A stretch of 50,250 nt of DNA, taken from Tepidimonas aquatica. GTDB taxonomy: Bacteria; Pseudomonadota; Gammaproteobacteria; Burkholderiales; Burkholderiaceae_C. The stretch covers positions 1 through 50,250 of the forward strand of contig NZ_VJNA01000021.1 in assembly GCF_007556585.1 (NCBI RefSeq), in the 5' to 3' direction. Within the stretch, counting starts at the first letter, position 1. Each line of letters begins with the position of its first letter. The translations under genes were made by a program, and so were the position numbers. Positions 112-11,533 of the stretch are shown one piece after another. The notes under the pieces were generated by a model. The model saw only the letters and a program-made list of their open reading frames with translations, made no database searches and was not told the origin of the DNA.

Positions 112-123
112 TGTTAACAGGCC
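1..123 (+). mobile_element. Right end of an IS5-family insertion sequence (rest lies outside the window)
   Basis: The first 111 bases encode the C-terminus of an IS5-type transposase. The next 12 bases (tgttaacaggcc, 112-123) look like the terminal inverted repeat. They are followed at 124-127 by CTAG, which fits the YTAR target preferred by IS5. The left end and the second CTAG copy are outside the window, so the boundary is inferred. The element sits inside the 3' part of pelE and its transposase is transcribed against the pel operon. Confidence 0.7.
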
Positions 124-896
124 CTAGGCGCGAGTTCGCCTTGCCGCTGTTGCAGCGCCTGCAGCCAGTGCAGGGTCTGCTGCAGCGCGTGCTCGCGCAG
201 GTCATCGCTGGCGAGCCCTTGGTGCGCCAGCTCCCAGTGCAGCTCGGCCAGCAGCGCCCACAGCCGCGCCGGGTCGGCGGCGGCGGGCAGCGCTGCGCGC
301 GCTTGCGCAATCCAGTTCTGCAGGCGCTGCTGCTGGCGGTCGAGCACGCCGTAGGCCAGCAGCCGCACATCCTCCAGCTGGCCGGTTTCGCGCAGCGCAG
401 CCAGGGTTTGGTTGCCGGCGGCGGAGGGGCGCTGCGTCAGCAGGGTCAGCACTTGCTGCTGCAACGGCAGCGGCGCAGAGCCGCGCGCCACCTGCGCTCC
501 AAGCCCCGCCACGCGGCGCGCCAAGCGCCTGGGTTCGATGCGCTCCAGCGGCGGCAAGCGCACTTCGCCGAAGCGTTGGCGTGGCGGGCGGGGCTGCAGG
601 CGGCGCATTCGCCCTAGCGCCAGCGGCAACAGCGCCCAGCCCAGCACCGGCCAGGCCATCAACAGCGTACCAACCAGCGCCACCCCTGCCGGGCGACGTT
701 GCGTGCGCTTGCGGGCCAAGCCCAGTGCCAGAGCAGCGGCCAGCAACGCGCTGGCTGCCGTGTGCGCGGCCCAGAACGCGGGCAGCGATGCCCGATCCAG
801 CCCCTTCGCAAACCAGGTCGCCAGCGCTGCCAGTTCCAGGCCGATGCCGAGCACACCGGCCAGCGCCGCCAGCGCGCCTCGCGGCAGCCGTCTCAT
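114..896 (-). CDS. pelE: PelE, Pel polysaccharide inner-membrane protein, 3' end truncated by an insertion sequence
   Basis: PelE is an inner-membrane protein with TPR-like repeats that works with PelD, PelF and PelG in synthesis and export of the Pel exopolysaccharide. This reading frame has 260 residues, with hydrophobic segments near residues 8-27, 40-60 and 72-95. A soluble helical C-terminal part follows, consistent with TPR-like repeats. The ATG overlaps the pelD stop as ATGA. The Pseudomonas protein is longer (about 330 residues from memory). The last residues and the TAA stop here come from the insertion-sequence end at 112-123, so roughly 70 C-terminal residues appear to be lost. Assignment rests mainly on position after pelABCD and on topology. 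The truncated protein may be inactive, and the downstream pelF and pelG are not in view. Confidence 0.75.
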   Translation of the reverse strand: MRRLPRGALAALAGVLGIGLELAALATWFAKGLDRASLPAFWAAHTAASALLAAALALGLARKRTQRRPAGVALVGTLLMAWPVLGWALLPLALGRMRRLQPRPPRQRFGEVRLPPLERIEPRRLARRVAGLGAQVARGSAPLPLQQQVLTLLTQRPSAAGNQTLAALRETGQLEDVRLLAYGVLDRQQQRLQNWIAQARAALPAAADPARLWALLAELHWELAHQGLASDDLREHALQQTLHWLQALQQRQGELAPRAC

Positions 897-2197
897 GGGC
901 CCTCCGTGCCCCAGCGCAGCAGCTCAGCCGGCGGCGCATCCAGCGTGCGCACGCGCCAGCGCAAGCCTGCCTCAGACAAGCCGCCCCCTCCTTGTTGTTG
1001 CAGCCACTGCTCCAAGCGTTGAAAAAAGCCTTCGCTGCCTGCTCCGTGCGTCAGCGGCAACAACACCAGCAGACGACCTGGAGCCGGCTCGCAGCTGAGG
1101 TCGAGCGAGCGCAGTTGCGCTGCAATCCGCGGCAGCCAGTTGGCAGCCGCCGCGTCCCGGGCTTGCAGCACGCCCAGCGTCGAAGAAAGGCCCCAGCGCT
1201 GCTGCAGCCGATGCAGCCGCTGCAGCTCCAGTGCGAAATCCGCGGCGCAGCCAAGCTGCCGGCGCAGCACGTCGGCCGTGCTCAGACGCGCTTGGCGCAA
1301 CGCGGCGAAGTCGTCGCACAGCACCTGCAGCGCCACCAGCGTGCCATCGTGCAGCGCCAGAAACGGCAGGTGATGCACCGCCAGCAGCCACTGCGCCGCC
1401 TGACCGTCGAGCCCGAATGGCAGCACGACCCGGTAGCGCGAGGCGGCCAGCTCCGCGACGTCGCGCACGTGGGCGAGCCGGCCTCGCCGCAGCGCCTGGG
1501 TCACCATCGGGTCATCAGGATTGAGGGGCTGCGGCGGGCCCAAGTGCGCCAGCGGCGCGGGGTCAGGCCGGCCTGCCTCGTCGAGCCGGTGCAGCGTGGC
1601 CTGCTGCACCTTGGCAAAGCCGGCCAGCAGCTGCAGCAGCAGGCGGCCTGCCTCGCCATCGGGGGTATCCGGCCCCAGGCGGCGCAGCTGCTCCAGCGTC
1701 GCGCGCAGCGTCAGCGGCTGGTGCAGCAGCTCCTGTTCAAGTCGATCGTGCGACAGGCGCAGGGTGTAGTGCTGCCGGCTCAAGCGCTGCAGCTGATCTT
1801 GAGCGTAATCGCGCTCAATTTGATGCCGGCGCATCCGCTCGATCCAGCGGTCGGCGAACTCGCCCAGGATCAGGGTGACGATCCAGCCCCCCGCCCAGCC
1901 CGATCCGTCGTCCTGGGCGAAACTGGCGCCCAGCCATACCATGCCGACGGCGGTCAGCGCTGCGGCGGCCAGCGCGCCAGCCAGCGTGCCGTAGCGCAGT
2001 GTGACGATCCACGGCGCCAGCCACGCCCACGGAAAACCCGGCTGACCGCTCAACCAACCAGGGCTGCCCAGCCCCACGGCCAGCAGCCCGGCCAGCAGCG
2101 GCAGCGCCACGGCTTCGATCAGCGCCCACGGGCGCGGCTGGACGTGATCCCAACGCTGCGCCAGCGTGGGGCTGGCGCGCCAGACTAACGCCGTCAT
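893..2197 (-). CDS. pelD: PelD, c-di-GMP receptor of the Pel exopolysaccharide system
   Basis: PelD is the inner-membrane c-di-GMP receptor that switches on Pel synthesis. The 434-residue protein (455 in Pseudomonas aeruginosa) has hydrophobic segments in about residues 25-110. A coiled-coil-like stretch spans about 120-170, and a GAF-like middle and a degenerate GGDEF-like C-terminal domain follow. An RxxD motif (R363-S-L-D366) matches the inhibitory-site-like motif through which P. aeruginosa PelD binds c-di-GMP (R367/D370). Start and stop overlap the neighbouring genes by 4 bp (ATGA) on both sides, which shows tight translational coupling with pelC and pelE. Confidence 0.88.
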   Translation of the reverse strand: MTALVWRASPTLAQRWDHVQPRPWALIEAVALPLLAGLLAVGLGSPGWLSGQPGFPWAWLAPWIVTLRYGTLAGALAAAALTAVGMVWLGASFAQDDGSGWAGGWIVTLILGEFADRWIERMRRHQIERDYAQDQLQRLSRQHYTLRLSHDRLEQELLHQPLTLRATLEQLRRLGPDTPDGEAGRLLLQLLAGFAKVQQATLHRLDEAGRPDPAPLAHLGPPQPLNPDDPMVTQALRRGRLAHVRDVAELAASRYRVVLPFGLDGQAAQWLLAVHHLPFLALHDGTLVALQVLCDDFAALRQARLSTADVLRRQLGCAADFALELQRLHRLQQRWGLSSTLGVLQARDAAAANWLPRIAAQLRSLDLSCEPAPGRLLVLLPLTHGAGSEGFFQRLEQWLQQQGGGGLSEAGLRWRVRTLDAPPAELLRWGTEGP

Positions 2198-2715
2198 GGC
2201 GCCAGCGGCCCCAGCAGCTCACGCGCCAGCTTTTGCGCCACGCCAGCCAGCGATTCGCGCGAAAAGCCGCTCTTGCCGCCGACGGCGCTGTAAACACGCT
2301 GGCCGCTGCCGACATCCAGCACCGTCAGCGCCAGGCCCACGGCCGGCTCGCCATCGACGCCGACCTTGTAGCGCCACTCCGAAACCTGGCCGATGACCAG
2401 GTAGCGCGCGCCAGCGGACTGGGCCCATTGCAACAGCTCGGGCGTGCTGCGCAATTGGCCTTTTTCAAACAGGCTTTCATCCAGCCACTCCACCGGGGGC
2501 GTGACCACCGACGGCGACACGGACGCGGCCAGCCATTCGGTGACGATGCTCTGCGCACGACGGCCGGCCATGGGGGTTTCGGTGTGGTTGACAAACGGGG
2601 CCACGGCCCACACGGCGTTGGGCTGCAGCGTGGGGCGGCTGGAGCGCTGCACCGTGGAGCAGGCGCTCAAAGCCAGCGCAGCGGCGGTGGCGATCATCAG
2701 GGAGCGTCGTCGCAT
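2194..2715 (-). CDS. pelC: PelC, outer-membrane lipoprotein of the Pel export machinery
   Basis: PelC is a lipoprotein that in Pseudomonas forms a dodecameric ring under the PelB porin and guides the cationic polymer outward. The 173-residue product begins with a lipoprotein signal peptide: a basic start, a hydrophobic core and lipobox LSAC with the acylated cysteine at residue 19. The mature part contains the PelC-like core beginning AVWAVAPFVNHTETPMAG and a later YLVIGQVSEW segment. It lies 43 bp after pelB and overlaps pelD by 4 bp. Confidence 0.88.
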   Translation of the reverse strand: MRRRSLMIATAAALALSACSTVQRSSRPTLQPNAVWAVAPFVNHTETPMAGRRAQSIVTEWLAASVSPSVVTPPVEWLDESLFEKGQLRSTPELLQWAQSAGARYLVIGQVSEWRYKVGVDGEPAVGLALTVLDVGSGQRVYSAVGGKSGFSRESLAGVAQKLARELLGPLAP

Positions 2716-2758: not shown

Positions 2759-5700
2759 TCACCAATCGACCCGGTAGCGCAGCAGCAGGCGGCGAGTCAG
2801 GCCAGGGTTGGCGCCGAGGTTGCGGTCGAGCTGAAGCCCAATCAGGCCGCGGTCGTGGCCCAGCACGCTGCCCGCGAGGCCCAATTGGCCGCCGAGGCCG
2901 ACCCCGAGTTCGCTGTCGGTGGACCAGGTCAGCGCCGCATACGGCAGCCAGCCCCGCCGCGGCTCGGCCTGCAGCGTCAGCCCGTGGCTGACGGTTAGCG
3001 CCCACTGCGTGCGGCTGCGCGGCACGAAGGCATCCGACGCAAACAGCGTGGCCCCTGTCGGCAGCAGCGCACGCAGCGCAGGCAGGGCGTTGGGGGCGGC
3101 GGCGCGGTAGCGCTGGCGGTTCCAGCCCAGATCGACGCGCAGGCCGTGCGGGTTGGCCTCGGCCTGCCAGCTCAGGATCACGTCCAGCCGCTGGCCGCGG
3201 CCAAGCGTGTCCCCGCCAGGTTGCGCCCGCCAGCGCGCGGCGCTGGCGCGCACGTTGAGCGCCAGCGTGGGCCGCAGCGGCCAGACCAGGTCGGCGCCGA
3301 GCCAGTCCTGCAGTCCGATCAGGCGCAGGTTGTCGCTGGCGCTGGCCGGCTCGGCCCAGCCGGCTTCCAGGCCAAGCTGCAGGCGATCCCAGCGGCGCTG
3401 CCAGCGCAAGCCCAGCGAGGCGTGCGTGCCCAGCGCTTCCAGCCAGCCCAAGCGCCACTGCCAGGATTCGCGCGCGTCGCCGGCGTCCAGACGCAGCTGG
3501 AGCTGCCGCTCATCCGGCGCGGCGCCCAGCAGATCGGGCCGCTGCAAGGTGCGGTTGAACCGCTGCAAGGTGACGCTGAAGCGCAGGTGCGGCGTCAGCA
3601 GCGCTTGCCAGTGCAGCAGCGTTTGCAGCTCGTCCCAGGCGAGGCGCTCGGTGCGTTGCAGCTCGACGCTGAAGCGGTTGCGCTGGCTGCGCGTGAGGGC
3701 CACCCACTGCTCGTGCAGCAGGTCGTCGTCGGGGTAGCGCTCCAGCCCCTCGGAGGCCAGCTTGGCGGCTTGCGCCTCGTCCAGCCGTCGGGCGGCTTGC
3801 ACGATGTCGCGCCGCGGCAGCGGGCGCGGGTCGTCCAGCAGACGCTGCAGGGTTTCGCGGTCGTCTTCGGCCAGGGCCACCGCCAGCTCGGCCCAGCCAG
3901 GCTGAGCCAGGCCCGGGGCCACTCGGCGCAGCATCCAGGCGCGCGCGGCGGAATACTGGCCGCGCTGGATCCACTGCGCCAGCAGCACGCTGCGCGCCGC
4001 GGCGGTGTCGGGCAGCGCGGCCACCTCGCGCAGCGCGGCCCACTCAGCGTCGCCGGGCTGCAAAAAGGCGCTCAGCCGCGCTCGCAGGATCGGCAGCATG
4101 GTCTGCGGCGCCAGCGGTTGGTGGCGCAGCTGGCGCCAGGTGTGCAGCCGCAGCTGCCAGGCTTCGTCGTGCCGATCCAGCGCTTGCAGGATGTCGGCGG
4201 CTTGGGTCAGCCACAGCGGGTCGTGGCGGCGCTCGCGCAGGGTAGGGGCGGTCAGGCGCCACGCTTCGGCCACGTCGCCCAGCGTGAGGGCCATCGCCAC
4301 GCGCAGCTCCAGCCGGTCTTGCACCACGGCGCCATGGCGGCTCCAGTGGCGGCGCACCGCGGCCACGTCCTGGGTGTCGAGCGTGAACCACAGGGCGGCC
4401 TCCACGATGTCGGCGTCTTGCGGCGCGCGTTGCAGCGCCAGGCCGTAGAGGCGGCGCGCCTCGGGCCATTGGCCCGTTTGCCATGCCTGGCGTCCGGCGG
4501 CCACCAGGTAGCGCGGGTTGCGCTCCAGCTGGGCGCGCTGCGCCTCGGTCAGCGAGGCCAGCAGCGTTTGCGCCGCATCCAGCCGAGCGTGGTTTTGCCA
4601 GCGGGTGACGGCGCGGATCAGCGCGTCCTCCTGCTGGTGGCGGTGCCACAGCAGCGCTGCGGCTTGCGCCGCATCCAGATCGCGCCCGGCCACTTCGAGG
4701 GCGTATTCCCAGTCGGCCAGGTCTTGCGCGCTGGCCTGCGGCCGCTCGGCCAAGACGCGCAGTTGGCGGCTCGCCTCGTCGGCGTCGCCGCTTTCCAGCG
4801 CGAGCTCGGCGCGCAGGCGGCGGTAATCGTCCGCTTCTGGCGCGTCGGCCTGGGGTTCCTGCGCTTGACGCAGCACCATGAGCGCCTGTTCGCGCTCGTC
4901 CAGCAGCAGGTGCAGCAGCGCCAAGCGAAGCGCCAGTTCCGCCGGCCAGGGCGGCGCGGCGCTGCGGCTCCACCAAACAAGGGCCTCGCGCGCGCGGCCC
5001 AGCCGCTCGGCCAATTCGGCCAGAGCGCGCGCCAGCGCCGCATCGGGCTGATGTTGCCAGCCGCGTTGCAGGGTTTGCCAGGCTGACTCCGGGTCGCCGA
5101 GCCGCTCCTGCACGCTGGCCAGCTCCAGCCAGGTTGGGCTTTCGGCGGGTTGGCGGCGCAGCCGCTGCTGCAGATAGGCGACGTAGGCGTCGTCGCGCAG
5201 CAGGCCGATCGAGAGGCGTCGCACGGCTTCCCAGGCGGCGGGTTCGTCGCTCAAGCGCGCCACCTGCCACCACGCATCCAGCGCCAGTTCGGGGCGCTGG
5301 TTCCATTCCGCCACTTGCGCCAGACGACGCTGCCAGCGCAGGTTGTCAGGGCGCTGCTGCGCCACGCGCTGCGCCAGCGCCAGAGCGTCGTCGAGCTTGC
5401 GGTTTTCCAGAAAGACCTGGTAGGCCAGCTCCATTACTTCCAAGTCAAGGGCTGGCTTGACGTGCGGCGCAGGCCGGGCAGAGGGCGCCGTTACCGAGGT
5501 TGGCCAGACGACGCGTCGCAAGCCGCCGGCCGATGCGGCTGCGTGGGCCTGCGCGCGTTGCCACGCCCACAGCCGCGGGCCCAGCGCCCAGCCGGGCATG
5601 GCGCTGGCGTCGCTCAAGCGAGCCGCTTGGGGTGTCGGCGCGGGGGCCGTCCGCTCGGTGAGGGCCAGCAGCTTGTTGACGTAGCGCAACGCCAATTTCG

Positions 5701-6550
5701 GCTGGCCGGCGGCGCGGCTGAGCCGCACCGCCTCGAGCAAGCTCTGACGGTCGTGGGCGAACCAATCCTCGTGGTCTTGCAGCCAGCGCAGCAGCAGCGG
5801 CCATTGGCCGGCGCTTTCCAGCGCGCGCAACGCTTGGCCCCAGGCGTGCAGCCGCTGCGCGCCGGGCGGGCTGAGCTCGGCGGCCCAGAGCCACAGCTCC
5901 GCGCTGCGCCGATGCAGCCCTGCCGCCAGCGCGGCCTGGGCGGCGCGGCTCAGGATCTCAGGCAGCGGCGCAAAGGCGGGGTTGGGGGCGGTGAGCGCCT
6001 GGGCTTGCGCGCGCAGCTGATCCAGCGGCGCGCGCTGCCAGAGCCACTGTTGCAACAGCTCGCGCATGGCGGGCGGCAGCGCGGTTTCGGGCTCCCGCAG
6101 CAGGGGCCAGGCGTCGGCGGTGAGCGCGCCGGCGTCGGCCTCGCACGCCACCGCCTTGTTTTTGGGGTCGGCGCAGCCCTGCGCGTGCCACAGCTGCCAG
6201 CGCGCATACCAAGCGCGCTGCCGGGCCCACGCTTGCTGTTCCACGCTGCCTTGGGCTTGCAGCGCCGTCAGCAGCGCCAGCGCCTCTGCCGAGCGGCGTT
6301 CCTGCAAGAGGCGTTCGGCTTCGGCCATCAGGGCCGTTGAATCCGAGCGCGGGTCTTCGGGGGCGACGGCTTGCACGAGGCGTTCGAGCGCCTGAGCCTG
6401 ATGGCTGGAGCCGCCGGCGTGTTGCCGCCACTGCAGCGCCGCCAGCGCTGCCGCCACCCCGAGCGCCAGCAGCGCGACGCTCCAAGGCGGCACGGCGCGC
6501 GCCGGACGCTCAGCGGGGCGTGCAGTCGATGTCCAGGGTGACCGTTGCAT
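2759..6550 (-). CDS. pelB: PelB, TPR-rich outer-membrane porin for Pel secretion
   Basis: PelB spans the envelope. An N-terminal membrane anchor is followed by many TPR repeats that bind PelA and a C-terminal beta-barrel through which Pel leaves the cell. The 1263-residue protein (1193 in P. aeruginosa) has a hydrophobic segment at about residues 24-41, then a very long helical TPR-type region. The last 300 or so residues have alternating barrel-like composition and end in RVDW, an aromatic C-terminus typical of BAM-assembled barrels. The ATG used here overlaps pelA by 41 bp. A GTG at 6493 lies just after the pelA stop and is an alternative start that would shorten the protein by 19 residues. 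Confidence 0.88.
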   Translation of the reverse strand: MQRSPWTSTARPAERPARAVPPWSVALLALGVAAALAALQWRQHAGGSSHQAQALERLVQAVAPEDPRSDSTALMAEAERLLQERRSAEALALLTALQAQGSVEQQAWARQRAWYARWQLWHAQGCADPKNKAVACEADAGALTADAWPLLREPETALPPAMRELLQQWLWQRAPLDQLRAQAQALTAPNPAFAPLPEILSRAAQAALAAGLHRRSAELWLWAAELSPPGAQRLHAWGQALRALESAGQWPLLLRWLQDHEDWFAHDRQSLLEAVRLSRAAGQPKLALRYVNKLLALTERTAPAPTPQAARLSDASAMPGWALGPRLWAWQRAQAHAAASAGGLRRVVWPTSVTAPSARPAPHVKPALDLEVMELAYQVFLENRKLDDALALAQRVAQQRPDNLRWQRRLAQVAEWNQRPELALDAWWQVARLSDEPAAWEAVRRLSIGLLRDDAYVAYLQQRLRRQPAESPTWLELASVQERLGDPESAWQTLQRGWQHQPDAALARALAELAERLGRAREALVWWSRSAAPPWPAELALRLALLHLLLDEREQALMVLRQAQEPQADAPEADDYRRLRAELALESGDADEASRQLRVLAERPQASAQDLADWEYALEVAGRDLDAAQAAALLWHRHQQEDALIRAVTRWQNHARLDAAQTLLASLTEAQRAQLERNPRYLVAAGRQAWQTGQWPEARRLYGLALQRAPQDADIVEAALWFTLDTQDVAAVRRHWSRHGAVVQDRLELRVAMALTLGDVAEAWRLTAPTLRERRHDPLWLTQAADILQALDRHDEAWQLRLHTWRQLRHQPLAPQTMLPILRARLSAFLQPGDAEWAALREVAALPDTAAARSVLLAQWIQRGQYSAARAWMLRRVAPGLAQPGWAELAVALAEDDRETLQRLLDDPRPLPRRDIVQAARRLDEAQAAKLASEGLERYPDDDLLHEQWVALTRSQRNRFSVELQRTERLAWDELQTLLHWQALLTPHLRFSVTLQRFNRTLQRPDLLGAAPDERQLQLRLDAGDARESWQWRLGWLEALGTHASLGLRWQRRWDRLQLGLEAGWAEPASASDNLRLIGLQDWLGADLVWPLRPTLALNVRASAARWRAQPGGDTLGRGQRLDVILSWQAEANPHGLRVDLGWNRQRYRAAAPNALPALRALLPTGATLFASDAFVPRSRTQWALTVSHGLTLQAEPRRGWLPYAALTWSTDSELGVGLGGQLGLAGSVLGHDRGLIGLQLDRNLGANPGLTRRLLLRYRVDW

Positions 6551-9245
6551 GGGGGCTCGTGACGCGAACGCGGTGACCTGCGGATGCGGTCACCGTGGCG
6601 GAAGTGGCAGGGATCAGGCGGCAGCCGTCCGGCACGCGCCATTCGGCTTCCACGGGGACGTGGCCTTGCAAGCGCCAGCGCCAGCGCTGCGCCGCCACGG
6701 CCTCGTGCTGGTCGATGGCGGCGTTGGCGCTGATCAGATAAGGGGGATCGTCGGTGCCGGCTGCCTCGCGCAGCGCGAGCTCAGCCGGCAGGCTGGCCAG
6801 ATGGACATACGTGCCGGAAGGATGGTCGGCGTAGCCGGCCACGCCTGCGCTGCGCGCCCAGTCGGGGCGGCTGCCCGGCGGCAGGCGCACGGTGCGCAGA
6901 TCGCCACGGCCCTTGAGCAGCCAGCGCCCGTCGGCCAGCCGCGCCACCGCGACGTGCTCAAAAAAATCTTCGACCTTGCGCACGTAGGCGCTGACCGGCT
7001 GCGGGTGCAGCGGCTGCGCGCGCGCCCACGCATAGACTTTTTCCAGCGCCTGCAGCGAGGCGGGCTTGGAGGCGGAGTAGGTGTGGTAGTAGATGCTGGC
7101 GGGTTTCAGGCGGCGGGGCCGCTCGGTCATTTCCAGCGTTTCGATAACGCGTTGATAGCCCCAGAACGGCCCAGTCCACAGGTTGGTGTAGAGGTTTTCG
7201 TTGGCCAGCGGGGCATAGACCTGCAGCTGTCCCTCCTTGACGATGCCCATCGGGGCCACGCAGGTCAGGCTTGGGCATTGCTGGCTTTTGGGGGTGTCGC
7301 CGCCGTTGAGGTTGAGCAGGCCGGCGCGTCGCACGTGGGCGATTTGGGCGGCGCTCGGGTTGCAGTCGCCGGACCAGAACAGCAGCCGCACGTCCTTGCC
7401 CGGCGGCAGCAGACGGCGGATGAACGCCACGCTGCCTTCGACCTCGCGCCGTAGATCGAACTGGTAGCCGGGGATGGTCAGGTTGTAGTTCAGCTCGGTG
7501 ACATCCTCGTCGTTGCGCGCGGCCTGCTCCAGCGGCTGCCAGCGGTAGGGGTGGCTGAAGGTGTGGGTGGCCGCTTCCACCCACGGCAGCTCGAACAGGC
7601 GGCGCGCGATGCGCTGCGCTTCGTCCGCGGTGGCCGGGTAGGGGCCTTGCGGCGAGAGTTCGGCCTCGATCAGCGACATGCTGTGCGGCCAAGGGTGGCG
7701 CTCAATGAAGCGCCGCAGCACCTCGCCCGCCAAGGGGCGCTCGGGCCATTCGCCGCGGTTGACGAAGCCGTCGCCGTCGATGTGGATGGTCAGCAGCCGC
7801 CGCCCGCTTTCGGTGGTGACGTCCGGCGCCGGCATCGGCGGCAGCCGCAGCGCTTCGGTCAGCAGCGCAAACGGATCGGGCAGCCAACGCACCTGCTTGA
7901 AACCTGGCACGAAATCCACCAGCGCCGGCTGCAGCGCAAAGCCGCCCCACGGCGCGGCGCCGACCAACGCCCCCGTCCCGGCCCACGCCCAGCGGCGCAG
8001 GTCGGGGCCGGCCAGGCCCGTCGCCGGCCCCGGCAGTCGGGCCGGCGGGCGGGTTTCAGCGCCGAGCCGCTCGTGCTGCAGCGGGGTCTGCGCCGCGATG
8101 CGCACCGTGCGCAGCGCTGGATCCAGCACGCGCGGATCCAGCGTCCACTCGTTCAGCACCAGGATCGGCAGCCCTTCGGCCCGCGCGCGGCGCAAAAAGG
8201 CGTGCAATCCCGCCGGATCGGGCGCCGGGCCCTCGCCCCACACGATGACGCCAGCCACATGTCCGCCGAGCGGCTCTTGCGGAAAGGGGCCCTGCAGCGC
8301 TACCACTTCGGTGCGGTAGCCCAAGTATTGGGCCGGCATGTCGAGCCAGCGCAGCATCGGCGTGGTTTGCAAATCGGGGTGGCGCTGGCGATCCAGCACG
8401 ATCAGCAACGTGCGCGGCAGGCTTTCCACTCGCCCGACGCCGACGCCTTGCAACAGCCCGTCGGTGACGTAGGGGATGAAGCCCAGCTGCTCGATGCGCT
8501 TGGCCACTTCGCGCGCCTGCGCGCGTTCGGCGGGCGCGACGTAGTCGATCACCACCACCGGCTTGCCATAGCGCTGCTGCGCCTGGCGCAGCTGCTGCAG
8601 CAGCCACTGCTGGTCGGCCTCGGACGTGGGGCTGTAAGCGCCGCGGGCGGCGTCGAAGCGGTGCAGCAGCGATTCCGCCGCCACCAACTCCACCGCGTCG
8701 GCCACCTGCGGCAAAAGCTCAAAGCCGCGGTTGAGCATCAGGCGCGCTTGAGGGGCGCGTTGCCGGATGGCGCGGATGAGTTCCGCCAGAGCGGCTTGCT
8801 GGCGTGTGGGGTCGAGTTGGGGGTCGAGCCGGTAGCTGTCCAGCGTGTCGAGAAAAAACCCGCGCCAGCCGCGCTGCCACAACGGCGCAAAGACCTGCTC
8901 GATCCAGAATCCGCGGCACGCCGCCTCGGCGTGGTTCCAGATCCGTGCGCCCCAGTGCGGGTTGCGCACCGACGAGAGGCACCCGGCTGGCGCTTGCGCG
9001 GCGCCGGGGTGGTGGTCGGGCAGCTCCCCTACGCTGACGTAAGCGAACGGCTCCATCCCCGGCGCGCGCAGGCGCTGGGGATCGTGGCCGTAGGCGGGTT
9101 CCAGCACGACGATGTCGAACGCCGTCAGCTCGGGCCGCCAGGTCTCGCCGTAGTACAACGCCACCGACGGCGCCTGTGCCCAGCCGCCGAGGTGGGCGAG
9201 CAGAGCGAGGATTCCGAGGCTGAATCGGCCTAGATTCAAGAACAT
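6510..9245 (-). CDS. pelA: PelA, periplasmic Pel deacetylase and glycoside hydrolase
   Basis: PelA partially de-N-acetylates the GalNAc-rich Pel polymer and can also hydrolyse it. The 911-residue protein starts with a Sec signal peptide (about residues 1-24, cleavage near WAQA). Residues about 25-280 resemble the GH166 (PelA-type) hydrolase domain. From about 485 comes a carbohydrate-esterase-4 domain. It has the motif HIDGDGF (residues 488-494) for the catalytic base, and an H-x3-H metal site in HTFSHPY (H561, H565). It is the first gene of the pel operon and faces a divergent spherulin-4-like gene 155 bp away. The ATG has no strong ribosome binding site, and a small palindrome sits 15 nt before it. 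Confidence 0.92.
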   Translation of the reverse strand: MFLNLGRFSLGILALLAHLGGWAQAPSVALYYGETWRPELTAFDIVVLEPAYGHDPQRLRAPGMEPFAYVSVGELPDHHPGAAQAPAGCLSSVRNPHWGARIWNHAEAACRGFWIEQVFAPLWQRGWRGFFLDTLDSYRLDPQLDPTRQQAALAELIRAIRQRAPQARLMLNRGFELLPQVADAVELVAAESLLHRFDAARGAYSPTSEADQQWLLQQLRQAQQRYGKPVVVIDYVAPAERAQAREVAKRIEQLGFIPYVTDGLLQGVGVGRVESLPRTLLIVLDRQRHPDLQTTPMLRWLDMPAQYLGYRTEVVALQGPFPQEPLGGHVAGVIVWGEGPAPDPAGLHAFLRRARAEGLPILVLNEWTLDPRVLDPALRTVRIAAQTPLQHERLGAETRPPARLPGPATGLAGPDLRRWAWAGTGALVGAAPWGGFALQPALVDFVPGFKQVRWLPDPFALLTEALRLPPMPAPDVTTESGRRLLTIHIDGDGFVNRGEWPERPLAGEVLRRFIERHPWPHSMSLIEAELSPQGPYPATADEAQRIARRLFELPWVEAATHTFSHPYRWQPLEQAARNDEDVTELNYNLTIPGYQFDLRREVEGSVAFIRRLLPPGKDVRLLFWSGDCNPSAAQIAHVRRAGLLNLNGGDTPKSQQCPSLTCVAPMGIVKEGQLQVYAPLANENLYTNLWTGPFWGYQRVIETLEMTERPRRLKPASIYYHTYSASKPASLQALEKVYAWARAQPLHPQPVSAYVRKVEDFFEHVAVARLADGRWLLKGRGDLRTVRLPPGSRPDWARSAGVAGYADHPSGTYVHLASLPAELALREAAGTDDPPYLISANAAIDQHEAVAAQRWRWRLQGHVPVEAEWRVPDGCRLIPATSATVTASAGHRVRVTSPHATVTLDIDCTPR

Positions 9246-9260
9246 AACCCCATCATCATA

Positions 9261-9275
9261 TCAGCCTAAAGCTGA
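9261..9275. promoter_or_regulatory. Palindrome TCAGC-N5-GCTGA upstream of pelA
   Basis: A perfect 5-bp dyad with a 5-bp centre (ctaaa) lies exactly 15 nt before the pelA ATG. The same half-sites recur at 9373-9385, 15 nt before the divergent gene. It could be a protein-binding site or a small mRNA hairpin near the start codon. No binding protein can be named. Confidence 0.4.
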
Positions 9276-9372
9276 CAAGCTCCTCTTGGCGACGCGCCGG
9301 CGTAGGGTGAAGCGTTGAAGCGGTCGTAGTGGGCTGGCTGCGGTGCCGCTCTTCATCATCCGCCTCAATCAG

Positions 9373-9385
9373 TCAGCATAGCTGA
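9373..9385. promoter_or_regulatory. Palindrome TCAGC-N3-GCTGA upstream of the spherulin-4-like gene
   Basis: This has the same dyad arms as the site before pelA, here with a 3-bp centre (ata). It lies 15 nt before the ATG at 9401. Its placement mirrors the pelA site, which suggests shared control of the two divergent genes. This is an inference from sequence alone. Confidence 0.4.
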
Positions 9386-9400
9386 ATGCCATAGCAAATC

Positions 9401-10246
9401 ATGAAGAATTGGTACAAACAAAAGCCGGATCTGTTTTGGAAGCGGCCTTGCAGCTGCCCGCAACGGTATTTCGAAAACGCTCTGACACGTCGCCATGTCC
9501 TGGCGACAGGGTTGGGCTTGGCCGCAAGCAGTTTGGCCGGCTGTGGCGGTGGCGGCGATGATGCGGATGCGTCAGCGATCGCGCGCCCACGGTTGCTGGT
9601 GCCGGCGTATTTCCGCGAGACGGCGCTTTGGGCGGCGGTCAGTACACCGCGCGATCCGGCGCACTGGATCATCGCCAACGCCGCCAGCGGCCCGGGAAGC
9701 CGGCGCGATGAAGTACTGGCGGGTTTCATTGCGCAGGCGCGCCAGGGTGGCCATCAGGTGTTGGGTTATGTCGCCACCAACTACACCCGCGTGCCGCTGG
9801 CCACGGTGCTGGATGCGGCGGCGCGCTGGGATCAGCTCTACGGGGTAGGCCATCTGTTCGTCGATGAAGTGGCTGCGCAGGCCAGCGGCCTGGCGTATTA
9901 CGCCGATTTGATCGCGGGCTGGCGGCGGTTGCAGCCGGGTGGCTTGATCGTGCTGAATTCAGGCACGACCCCGGACCCGGGCTATTTTCGGCTCGATCCG
10001 GCGTTGGAAATCGTGGTGTTCGAAGATCGCTGGACGGCGTTTGCGGCCTACCGCTTTCCGGATACGCTGAGGCCATGGCGCGCGCGCAGCCATCTGATCG
10101 TGTATTCGGCACCACAGGAGGCACTGCTTTCCGTGTACGACTTTGTGCGACGGCAGGGGCTGCACGGCTTTTTTGTCACCGACACCAGCTCGGCCGAATA
10201 CCACCTGCGGCTGCCATCGTATTGGGCGCAGCAGGTGGCTCTCTGA
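9401..10246 (+). CDS. Spherulin-4 (GH135-like) secreted putative glycosidase, lipoprotein
   Basis: The 281-residue protein matches the spherulation-specific family 4 pattern: LLVPAYF, then HWIIANAASGPG, GYVATNY and HLFVDEV. The family includes fungal Sph3 (GH135), an endo-acting enzyme on GalNAc-containing galactosaminogalactan. The acid pair D155-E156 and E208 have about the same spacing as the Sph3 active-site acids as I recall them. The N-terminus carries a twin-arginine-like motif (TRRHVL, residues 29-34), a hydrophobic stretch and lipobox LAGC (C48), so it is probably an exported lipoprotein. It is divergent from pelA, whose product acts on another GalNAc-rich polymer. A role in trimming or remodelling Pel is therefore inferred. 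No clear ribosome binding site supports the start, and an internal start is possible. Confidence 0.75.
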   Translation: MKNWYKQKPDLFWKRPCSCPQRYFENALTRRHVLATGLGLAASSLAGCGGGGDDADASAIARPRLLVPAYFRETALWAAVSTPRDPAHWIIANAASGPGSRRDEVLAGFIAQARQGGHQVLGYVATNYTRVPLATVLDAAARWDQLYGVGHLFVDEVAAQASGLAYYADLIAGWRRLQPGGLIVLNSGTTPDPGYFRLDPALEIVVFEDRWTAFAAYRFPDTLRPWRARSHLIVYSAPQEALLSVYDFVRRQGLHGFFVTDTSSAEYHLRLPSYWAQQVAL

Positions 10247-10372
10247 ATCGGCGATCCGTGTCCGTCAACATTGCCGAGCGCGCCCGAATCGGCTCAAGGT
10301 CGAAGTCGGGCGGTTGAGGCCATCTTGCGGGCAGTCGGCTGCGCATCGATCAGCGCCGCCACCGCCTGCCCT

Positions 10373-11500
10373 TCACGAGAAAAAATCGCGCGCCTTCTCG
10401 AACCAGCTCTTCTCGTGCGGGCTGTGCTTGGTGCCGCCCTTGCGGAAGGACTCGTCCAGTTCGCGCAGCAGGCGGCGCTGGTGCTCGGTCAGCTTGACCG
10501 GGGTTTCCACGACGATGTGCGCGTACAGGTCGCCGGGGTAGCTGGAGCGCACGCCCTTGATGCCGCGGCCGCGCAGGCGGAACGTCTTGCCGGTCTGCGT
10601 GCCCTCGGGGATGTCGATGACGGCCTTCTGGCCGTCCAGCGTCGGGATCTCGACCTCGCCGCCGAGTGCCGCGGTGGTGATGCTGACCGGCACCTGCACG
10701 TGCAGGTCGTCGCCGTCGCGCTCGAAGATTTCGTGGCGGCGGATGCGGATCTCGATGTAGAGGTCGCCGGGCGGGCCGCCGTTGCGGCCGGGCTCGCCGT
10801 TGCCGCTGGAGCGGATGCGCATGCCGTCGTCGATGCCGGCCGGGATCTTGATCTCCAGCGTCTTGTGGCGCTTGACGCGGCCCTCGCCGTGGCAGGTGGG
10901 GCAGGGCTCGGGGATGATCTTGCCGCTGCCGTGGCAGTGCGGGCAGGTCTGCTGCACGCTGAAGAAACCTTGCCGCATCTGCACCACGCCGTTGCCGTGG
11001 CAGGTGGGGCAGGTGCGCGCGCTGGTGCCGGGCTTGGCGCCGCTGCCGTGGCAGGTGTCGCAGGTTTCCCAACTGGGCACGCGCACCTGGGTTTCTTTGC
11101 CGCGTGCGGCTTCTTCCAGCGTGATTTCCAGCGCGTACGACAGGTCCGCACCGCGGTACACCTGGCGCCCGCGCGCGCCGCGCGGCGCGCCGAAGATGTC
11201 GCCGAAGATGTCGCCAAAGGCTTCGGAGAACCCGGCAAAGCCGTCGGCGCCGCCGGCGCGCATGTTGGAGTCAACCCCCGCGTGGCCGTAGCGGTCGTAG
11301 GCGGCGCGCTTGTCGGCGTCCGACAGAATTTCGTAGGCCTCTTTGACTTCCTTGAACTTTTCTTCGGCGGCCTTGGCGGCCTCACCCTGGTTGCGGTCCG
11401 GGTGGTATTTCATCGCCAGCTTGCGGTACGCCTTTTTGATGTCGTCTTCGCTGGCGTTGCGGGGTACCCCCAGCACCTCGTAGTAGTCGCGTTTGGCCAT
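10373..11500 (-). CDS. dnaJ: DnaJ, Hsp40 co-chaperone
   Basis: DnaJ delivers unfolded proteins to DnaK and stimulates its ATPase. The 375-residue protein starts at [11 protein letters not shown] (ATG at 11498-11500). The frame is open 10 codons further upstream, but only this start gives the canonical N-terminus. The J domain carries HPD (residues 33-35). A Gly/Phe-rich linker follows, then four zinc-binding CxxCxGxG repeats and the C-terminal substrate-binding domain. The gene follows dnaK by 98 bp that hold a terminator-like hairpin. Confidence 0.97.
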
Positions 11501-11533
11501 GGGCAGGACAAAGGGTGTCGATGTGGACAAAAG

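Follow-up and report, generated by a model that had tools for sequence, protein, structure and literature searches.

The gene divergent from pelA in the window (the whole 50,250-nucleotide stretch analysed, which is the entire contig C14 of a 2.67-Mb draft genome, G000) probably encodes an endo-alpha-1,4-N-acetylgalactosaminidase of the GH135/Sph3 family that is exported and anchored in the outer membrane, and which would act as an accessory part of the Pel module and trim the cell's own Pel beside the GH166 hydrolase domain of PelA. The computed support comes from the family assignment, the predicted fold, the catalytic residues, an export signal read by eye, purifying selection, gain or loss in one block with pel, and repeated linkage to pel in relatives. 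Some bacteria therefore probably carry a second, dedicated hydrolase for their own biofilm polymer.

Pel is synthesised as acetylated poly-GalNAc that PelA partly deacetylates and cuts. In the mechanism that we propose, the GH135 enzyme would most likely cut the stretches left acetylated, as preferred by fungal Sph3. Cutting would take place at one face of the outer membrane, the periplasmic or the outer one, would set the Pel chain length and the balance between cell-bound and released polymer, and would clear under-deacetylated polymer.

The GH135 gene and its predicted product

The gene is a single open reading frame of 281 codons (Table 1). A first-pass annotation had described its product as an exported Spherulin-4/GH135-like protein facing the pel operon, and the profile search upholds this: residues 66-280 match Spherulin4 (PF12138, GH135) in Pfam with an E value of 1.8e-24 and 87 bits against a cut-off of 30.2, placing the protein within the family. 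The only meaningful kin in a sequence search of the PDB were the Sph3 entries 5c5g and 5d6t (E 2e-4), and no further Spherulin4 copy was found in the genome. A Methyltransf_24 match of the same protein was under its cut-off and was set aside. Within the first 50 residues, a twin arginine (R30-R31), a hydrophobic stretch and a lipobox running to Cys48, with Gly following, can be recognised by eye. We take this to be the N-terminus of a Tat-exported lipoprotein that lacks the inner-membrane retention Asp, for which anchoring in the outer membrane is presumably to be expected.

Table 1. Positions of the GH135 gene, the pel genes and their neighbours in the window
Feature	Position	Strand	Basis
sph-like gene (GH135/Spherulin4 Tat-type lipoprotein, 281 aa)	9401..10246	+	ORF list, Pfam, PDB sequence match, modelled fold
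Codon of lipobox Cys48 (LAGC-G)	9542..9544	+	Read by eye in sequence
D155-E156 codons, aligned with the FFDE acids of Sph3	9863..9868	+	
E208 codon, aligned with the VFE glutamate of Sph3	10022..10024	+	
pelA/GH135 divergent intergenic region, 155 bp	9246..9400	.	Non-coding
pelA: GH166 hydrolase with D133 and E191 intact; deacetylase motifs HIDGDGF and THTFSHP intact	6510..9245	-	
pelB: TPR and C-terminal beta barrel	2759..6550	-	
pelC lipoprotein	2194..2715	-	Synteny and 48-54% identity to PelC of five relatives; no Pfam match
pelD: PelD_GGDEF domain	893..2197	-	
pelE (contig end here)	114..896	-	Synteny and 24-32% identity to five relatives; no Pfam match
dnaJ: right-hand flank of the pel-GH135 block	10373..11530	-	

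The GH135 domain is under purifying selection: comparison with the congener G399 over 222 codons gave a dN of 0.055 and a dS of 0.58 (NG86), a dN/dS of about 0.09, which rules out a spurious or chance open reading frame. The intergenic region separating the gene from pelA is of similar length in G399 (158 bp) and is poorly conserved. No sigma-70-like site was found in the 155 bp of the window, and a promoter and terminator scan over 9200-10420 returned nothing.

The GH135 domain was modelled with AlphaFold2 (mean pLDDT 93.4, pTM 0.91), and Foldseek comparison of the model with the PDB placed the Sph3 structures 5c5g and 5d6t at ranks 1 and 2 (E 3e-13, 3.2e-13 for 5c5g; 24% identity), with a TM score for 5c5g of 0.82 by query length (0.82/0.72 as a pair). 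Two mannanase chains came after Sph3, and Pseudomonas PelA (9cgy) stood at rank 5 with an E value of 6.6e-4. The protein is thus predicted to be a TIM barrel closest to Sph3, in agreement with the relationship first proposed for it. The numbering given in the first-pass annotation for the catalytic acids was also right, as D155, E156 and E208 align with those of Sph3 in the PDB sequence alignment. In an alignment of 62 rows (the window protein and 61 of 77 relative loci, from the best 80 of 256), which also underlies the AlphaFold2 model, the position of D155 is D in 62/62, and those of E156 and E208 are E in 61/62 each. The window protein stands far apart from the rest of the family, with 22-33% identity to the 61 relatives and a very long tree branch, and its substrate may therefore have shifted.

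Co-occurrence of GH135 and pel in Burkholderiales

Behind pelA lie pelB, pelC, pelD and pelE; pelF and pelG are found at the left end of contig C25 (369-3241) of the same genome, completing the pelABCDEFG set. Among 11 genomes of the genus, Spherulin4 occurs in three and the PelB barrel in exactly those three (G000, G399 and G402). In G399, dnaJ, the GH135 gene and the divergent pelA to pelF (the edge of the stretch examined) share one 162-kb contig, which rules out a contig artefact as the source of the adjacency. In the five examined of the eight pel-less congeners (G400, G401, G403, G406 and G408), the gene directly after dnaJ is, as its start shows, identical in kind in all five. In G000 this gene comes after pelG on C25, and there it scans as a beta-CASP metallo-hydrolase; GH135 and pelABCDEFG were therefore gained or lost as one block. 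By genus distribution and empty site, the GH135 gene belongs to the pel locus through co-inheritance.

In the third carrier, G402, pelA and the GH135 gene are on separate contigs, each at a contig end that bears pieces of an IS-like element (L155 1-505 and L156 1-732; an rve integrase domain on one contig end, weak helix-turn-helix matches on the other). Both junctions have in common 6 bp that correspond to window positions 9390-9395, just before the GH135 start codon, and, given these and the IS pieces, the layout was probably as in the window before insertion. Since an IS-like element lies between the two genes in G402, co-regulation is not obligatory. From about 8600 to 11014, the window and G402 do not differ over the 5' part of pelA, the GH135 gene and the 3' part of dnaJ; the stretches beside this tract do differ, with about 96% over whole alignments, and the tract is likely the product of recent recombination.

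In the wider family sample of 399 genomes, GH135 (Spherulin4) was found in 45, the PelB barrel over its cut-off in 55 and both in 34 (Fisher 2e-25, with kinship ignored); counted by genus, 12 had both, 8 GH135 only, 12 PelB only and 109 neither (2e-6). Both profiles matched 0/14 control genomes, a named set which therefore holds no positive control; given this, and with a ceiling of 5 PelB candidates scored per genome here and in the order sample, PelB may be undercounted. These family statistics, along with the genus distribution and the empty site, rule out a chance neighbour, and the expectation that the family would co-occur with pel in other genomes was borne out (3/3 GH135 genomes in the genus and 34/45 in the family carry PelB). 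PelB accompanied GH135 in 11/12 GH135 genomes of the order sample, where 44/399 genomes had PelB over the cut-off. In a class sample of 170 genomes, two had GH135, seven had PelB over the cut-off and only the window's genome had both; class-wide linkage was not seen, and the link is therefore seen only within Burkholderiales.

GH135 and PelB lay within 30 kb of each other in 22 family genomes. In 18 of these, GH135 shared the strand of the pelB barrel and lay 6-8 kb 3' of it, and the three inspected (G171, G204 and G377) have it directly behind pelG; the genes were divergent in two (G000 and G399) and 22 kb apart in two of one genus. In the other 12/34 family genomes with both genes, G402 among them, these were apart or on different contigs. 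GH135 occurred without PelB in 11/45 family genomes and PelB without GH135 in 21/55, so GH135 is accessory to Pel.

The latter count also bears on the strongest of the alternatives, an unlikely one, in which GH135 is a periplasmic housekeeping enzyme that destroys undeacetylated Pel stuck in the periplasm and keeps export through PelB unclogged, with no shaping of the matrix. An anti-clogging idea has been put forward for Sph3 next to its synthase, together with specificity for fully acetylated polymer (PMC12054363), and the lipoprotein anchor of the window protein could face the periplasm. However, PelA is itself active as a hydrolase in the periplasm (PMC12022489) and retains its residues in the window, and the 21 pel genomes lacking GH135 manage without it.

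Pel-linked GH135 genes in named relatives

A motif scan of GTDB genomes for GH135 gave 77 loci, drawn from the best 80 of 256 that were confirmed, with up to 10 kb on each side and some short contigs. The scan motifs are ones that the window protein lacks, so its own divergent type was sought only by profile searches of genome samples; searches of its own genome and of the genus, family, order and class samples found no kin closer than the two congeners.

Among these 77 loci from the best 80 of 256, GH135 stands behind pelG on the same strand in 29, which belong to Xylophilus, Acidovorax, Paracidovorax, Giesbergeria, Simplicispira, Paenacidovorax and unnamed bins. The gap to pelG is too short to hold a further gene, except in six loci where it is filled by a second GH135 copy, and tandem GH135 pairs occur in 10/29 (L060-L065, L067-L069 and L092). 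In the 17 readable loci that have no intervening copy, 20-180 bp separate pelG from the likely GH135 start (starts chosen by script), which suggests a single operon in these relatives. A lipobox was readable by script in 20 of the 29, all of them C-G-G as in the window, and unreadable in nine. A weak Big_1-like domain, below the Pfam cut-off, precedes GH135 in 3/4 scanned members behind pelG and is absent from the window protein. The divergent arrangement of the window recurs in 2/77 loci from the same best 80 of 256, those of Paraburkholderia bryophila (L126) and Caballeronia sp. (L132).

No pel gene was found by tblastn and profile searches with Pel queries within the flanks of up to 10 kb in the other 46/77 loci (best 80 of 256), except for a partial PelA-like match in L108. 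In one of them, from Delftia (L085, apparently the same contig as that of genome G133), pelB lies 22 kb off, beyond these flanks. In G133 (L047 and L048), GH135 has kept its hisA-like neighbour, as seen in Acidovorax, and the position of pelB, at this distance and on the opposite strand, would fit an inversion that separated the two. In two relatives, a gene that by eye reads as a galE-like epimerase is divergent upstream of pelA (L044 2-883 and L045 2-808); galE also flanks Gram-positive pel operons (PMC7112168).

The 46 loci, some of them in Planctomycetota and Verrucomicrobiota, and the 11 family GH135 genomes without PelB are what would be expected if GH135 were a weapon or scavenger that digests GalNAc polymers of other microbes (fungal GAG or foreign Pel), its proximity to pel being incidental. 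We consider this quite improbable, in view of the gain or loss in one block with pel, the exact co-distribution in the genus and the position right behind pelG in several genera.

A tree of 66 rows was built, which includes 17 of the 29 members behind pelG (best 80 of 256). All 17 fall in one starred group of 26, along with nine rows that have no pel nearby, and the Paraburkholderia/Caballeronia pair falls in a different group. The window protein and that of G399 form a branch of their own, about 4.8 changes per column in length (3.44 plus 1.33 across the drawn root), and the place of this type in the tree is unsure because of the very long branch and a flagged odd composition. The tree gives no support for one shared origin of the GH135 genes linked to pel, and fits repeated recruitment of GH135 to pel. 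We consider it about as likely as not that Burkholderiales contain a class of Pel systems with two hydrolases, where a GH135 lipoprotein with specificity for acetylated stretches would work beside the GH166 domain of PelA. GH135 would then have joined pel repeatedly (in Comamonadaceae behind pelG; in Paraburkholderia/Caballeronia and the window's genus in divergent orientation to pelA), rebuilding the two-hydrolase logic of the fungal galactosaminogalactan cluster.

PelA as partner, and comparison with known systems

Window PelA aligns with Pseudomonas PelA (9cgy) over residues 26-880 of 911 (E 3e-171). Its Asp133 aligns with the FLDTLDS Asp of 5tcb, and its Glu191 with the Glu that reads Ala in 5tsy. 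With these GH166 residues intact in the window, GH135 would add a second hydrolase to PelA and not replace it, and the earlier proposal of a second, pel-dedicated glycosidase is the best-supported reading. Of nine PelA proteins compared, the GH166 Glu is present in 9/9 and the Asp in 8/9; both residues are present in the window, in G399 and in five further PelA proteins of the family. The exception is Paraburkholderia bryophila (L126, 6205-8979), where Glu takes the place of the catalytic Asp and a divergent GH135 gene lies alongside. The DS[YF] motif next to this Asp is lost in both L126 and Caballeronia L132 (6595-9435), and L132 keeps the Asp. A handover of the hydrolase role from PelA to GH135 is possible in these two; as a general explanation, with GH135 standing in for a PelA hydrolase domain that is failing, it is the least probable of the alternatives, given the intact Asp and Glu in the window, G399 and five further family proteins and the Asp kept in L132, and simple replacement of a dead domain does not hold in the window.

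It is an open question why exopolysaccharide systems retain their own hydrolases, and one that becomes testable, by gene removal, in a clade where a second hydrolase is encoded separately and is expected to differ in specificity. Such an enzyme beside PelA would suggest that the acetylation pattern of the Pel differs as well. Bacterial GH135 enzymes are now also placed next to a known substrate pathway; in the available part of PMC12054363, only a fungal GH135 member is named as characterised.

A pel locus with a GH135 partner had been thought undescribed, and no description of a pelABCDEFG locus with a GH135 gene came up in a literature search that covered subscription papers thinly. A survey of pel operons (PMC7112194) reports locus gains and rearrangements, and the word "spherulin" is absent from its main text. 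Some agd3 operons of Actinobacteria contain spherulin-4 genes, and Gram-negative agd3 operons contain genes for the outer-membrane part of Pel export (PMC7229062); these are Agd3-type clusters, and the part of that paper available makes no mention of a pelABCDEFG locus with GH135.

A separate glycoside hydrolase gene at the pel locus, often divergent and flanking, is known from Gram-positive bacteria, as in pelAH of B. cereus (BCE_5582), loss of which raises biofilm mass, and SIR_1591 of Streptococcus intermedius (PMC7112168, PMC12345266). A hydrolase gene of its own at a pel locus is therefore not new in kind; what appears to be new is GH135 as the partner. Gram-positive PelA is described as lacking the hydrolase domain (PMC7112168), and the separate gene encodes either a PelA-hydrolase-like protein (BCE_5582) or another TIM-barrel enzyme with DUF4832 (SIR_1591). 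The pelAH arrangement, in which a PelA-hydrolase-like domain replaces the one missing from PelA, was not found in the window, where the partner is GH135 and PelA retains its GH166 residues. The GH166 domain of Pseudomonas PelA (5tcb, 9cgy) resembles the GH135 protein in being a TIM barrel and a hydrolase of the polymer from the same type of locus, the latter role being predicted for GH135, but is of another family and fused to the deacetylase. In P. aeruginosa, the PelA hydrolase gives rise to released Pel of low molecular weight and less adherent biomass (PMC9894940).

The closest counterpart is Sph3 of the fungal galactosaminogalactan cluster (5c5g, 5d6t), which the window protein resembles in family, predicted fold and catalytic acids. 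Sph3 cuts within acetylated GalNAc stretches, whereas PelAH also cuts within partly deacetylated ones (PMC8546845). The action of Sph3 on Pel, presented in the first-pass annotation as disruption of Pel biofilms, stands in part: Sph3 dissolves the GalNAc-rich Pel aggregates of Streptococcus intermedius, but the A. clavatus enzyme is reported to fail on Pel biofilms of P. aeruginosa (PMC12345266). The window protein differs from Sph3 in being a bacterial Tat-type lipoprotein in a Pel rather than a GAG cluster, with 24% identity in the structural match. Like the GH135 gene of the window, Sph3 is encoded with the machinery for a GalNAc polymer that is deacetylated in part, and has next to it a second hydrolase from a different family (PMC11356417, PMC7229062), which in fungal GAG clusters is a GH114 enzyme (PMC11356417) and in the window is the GH166 domain within PelA.
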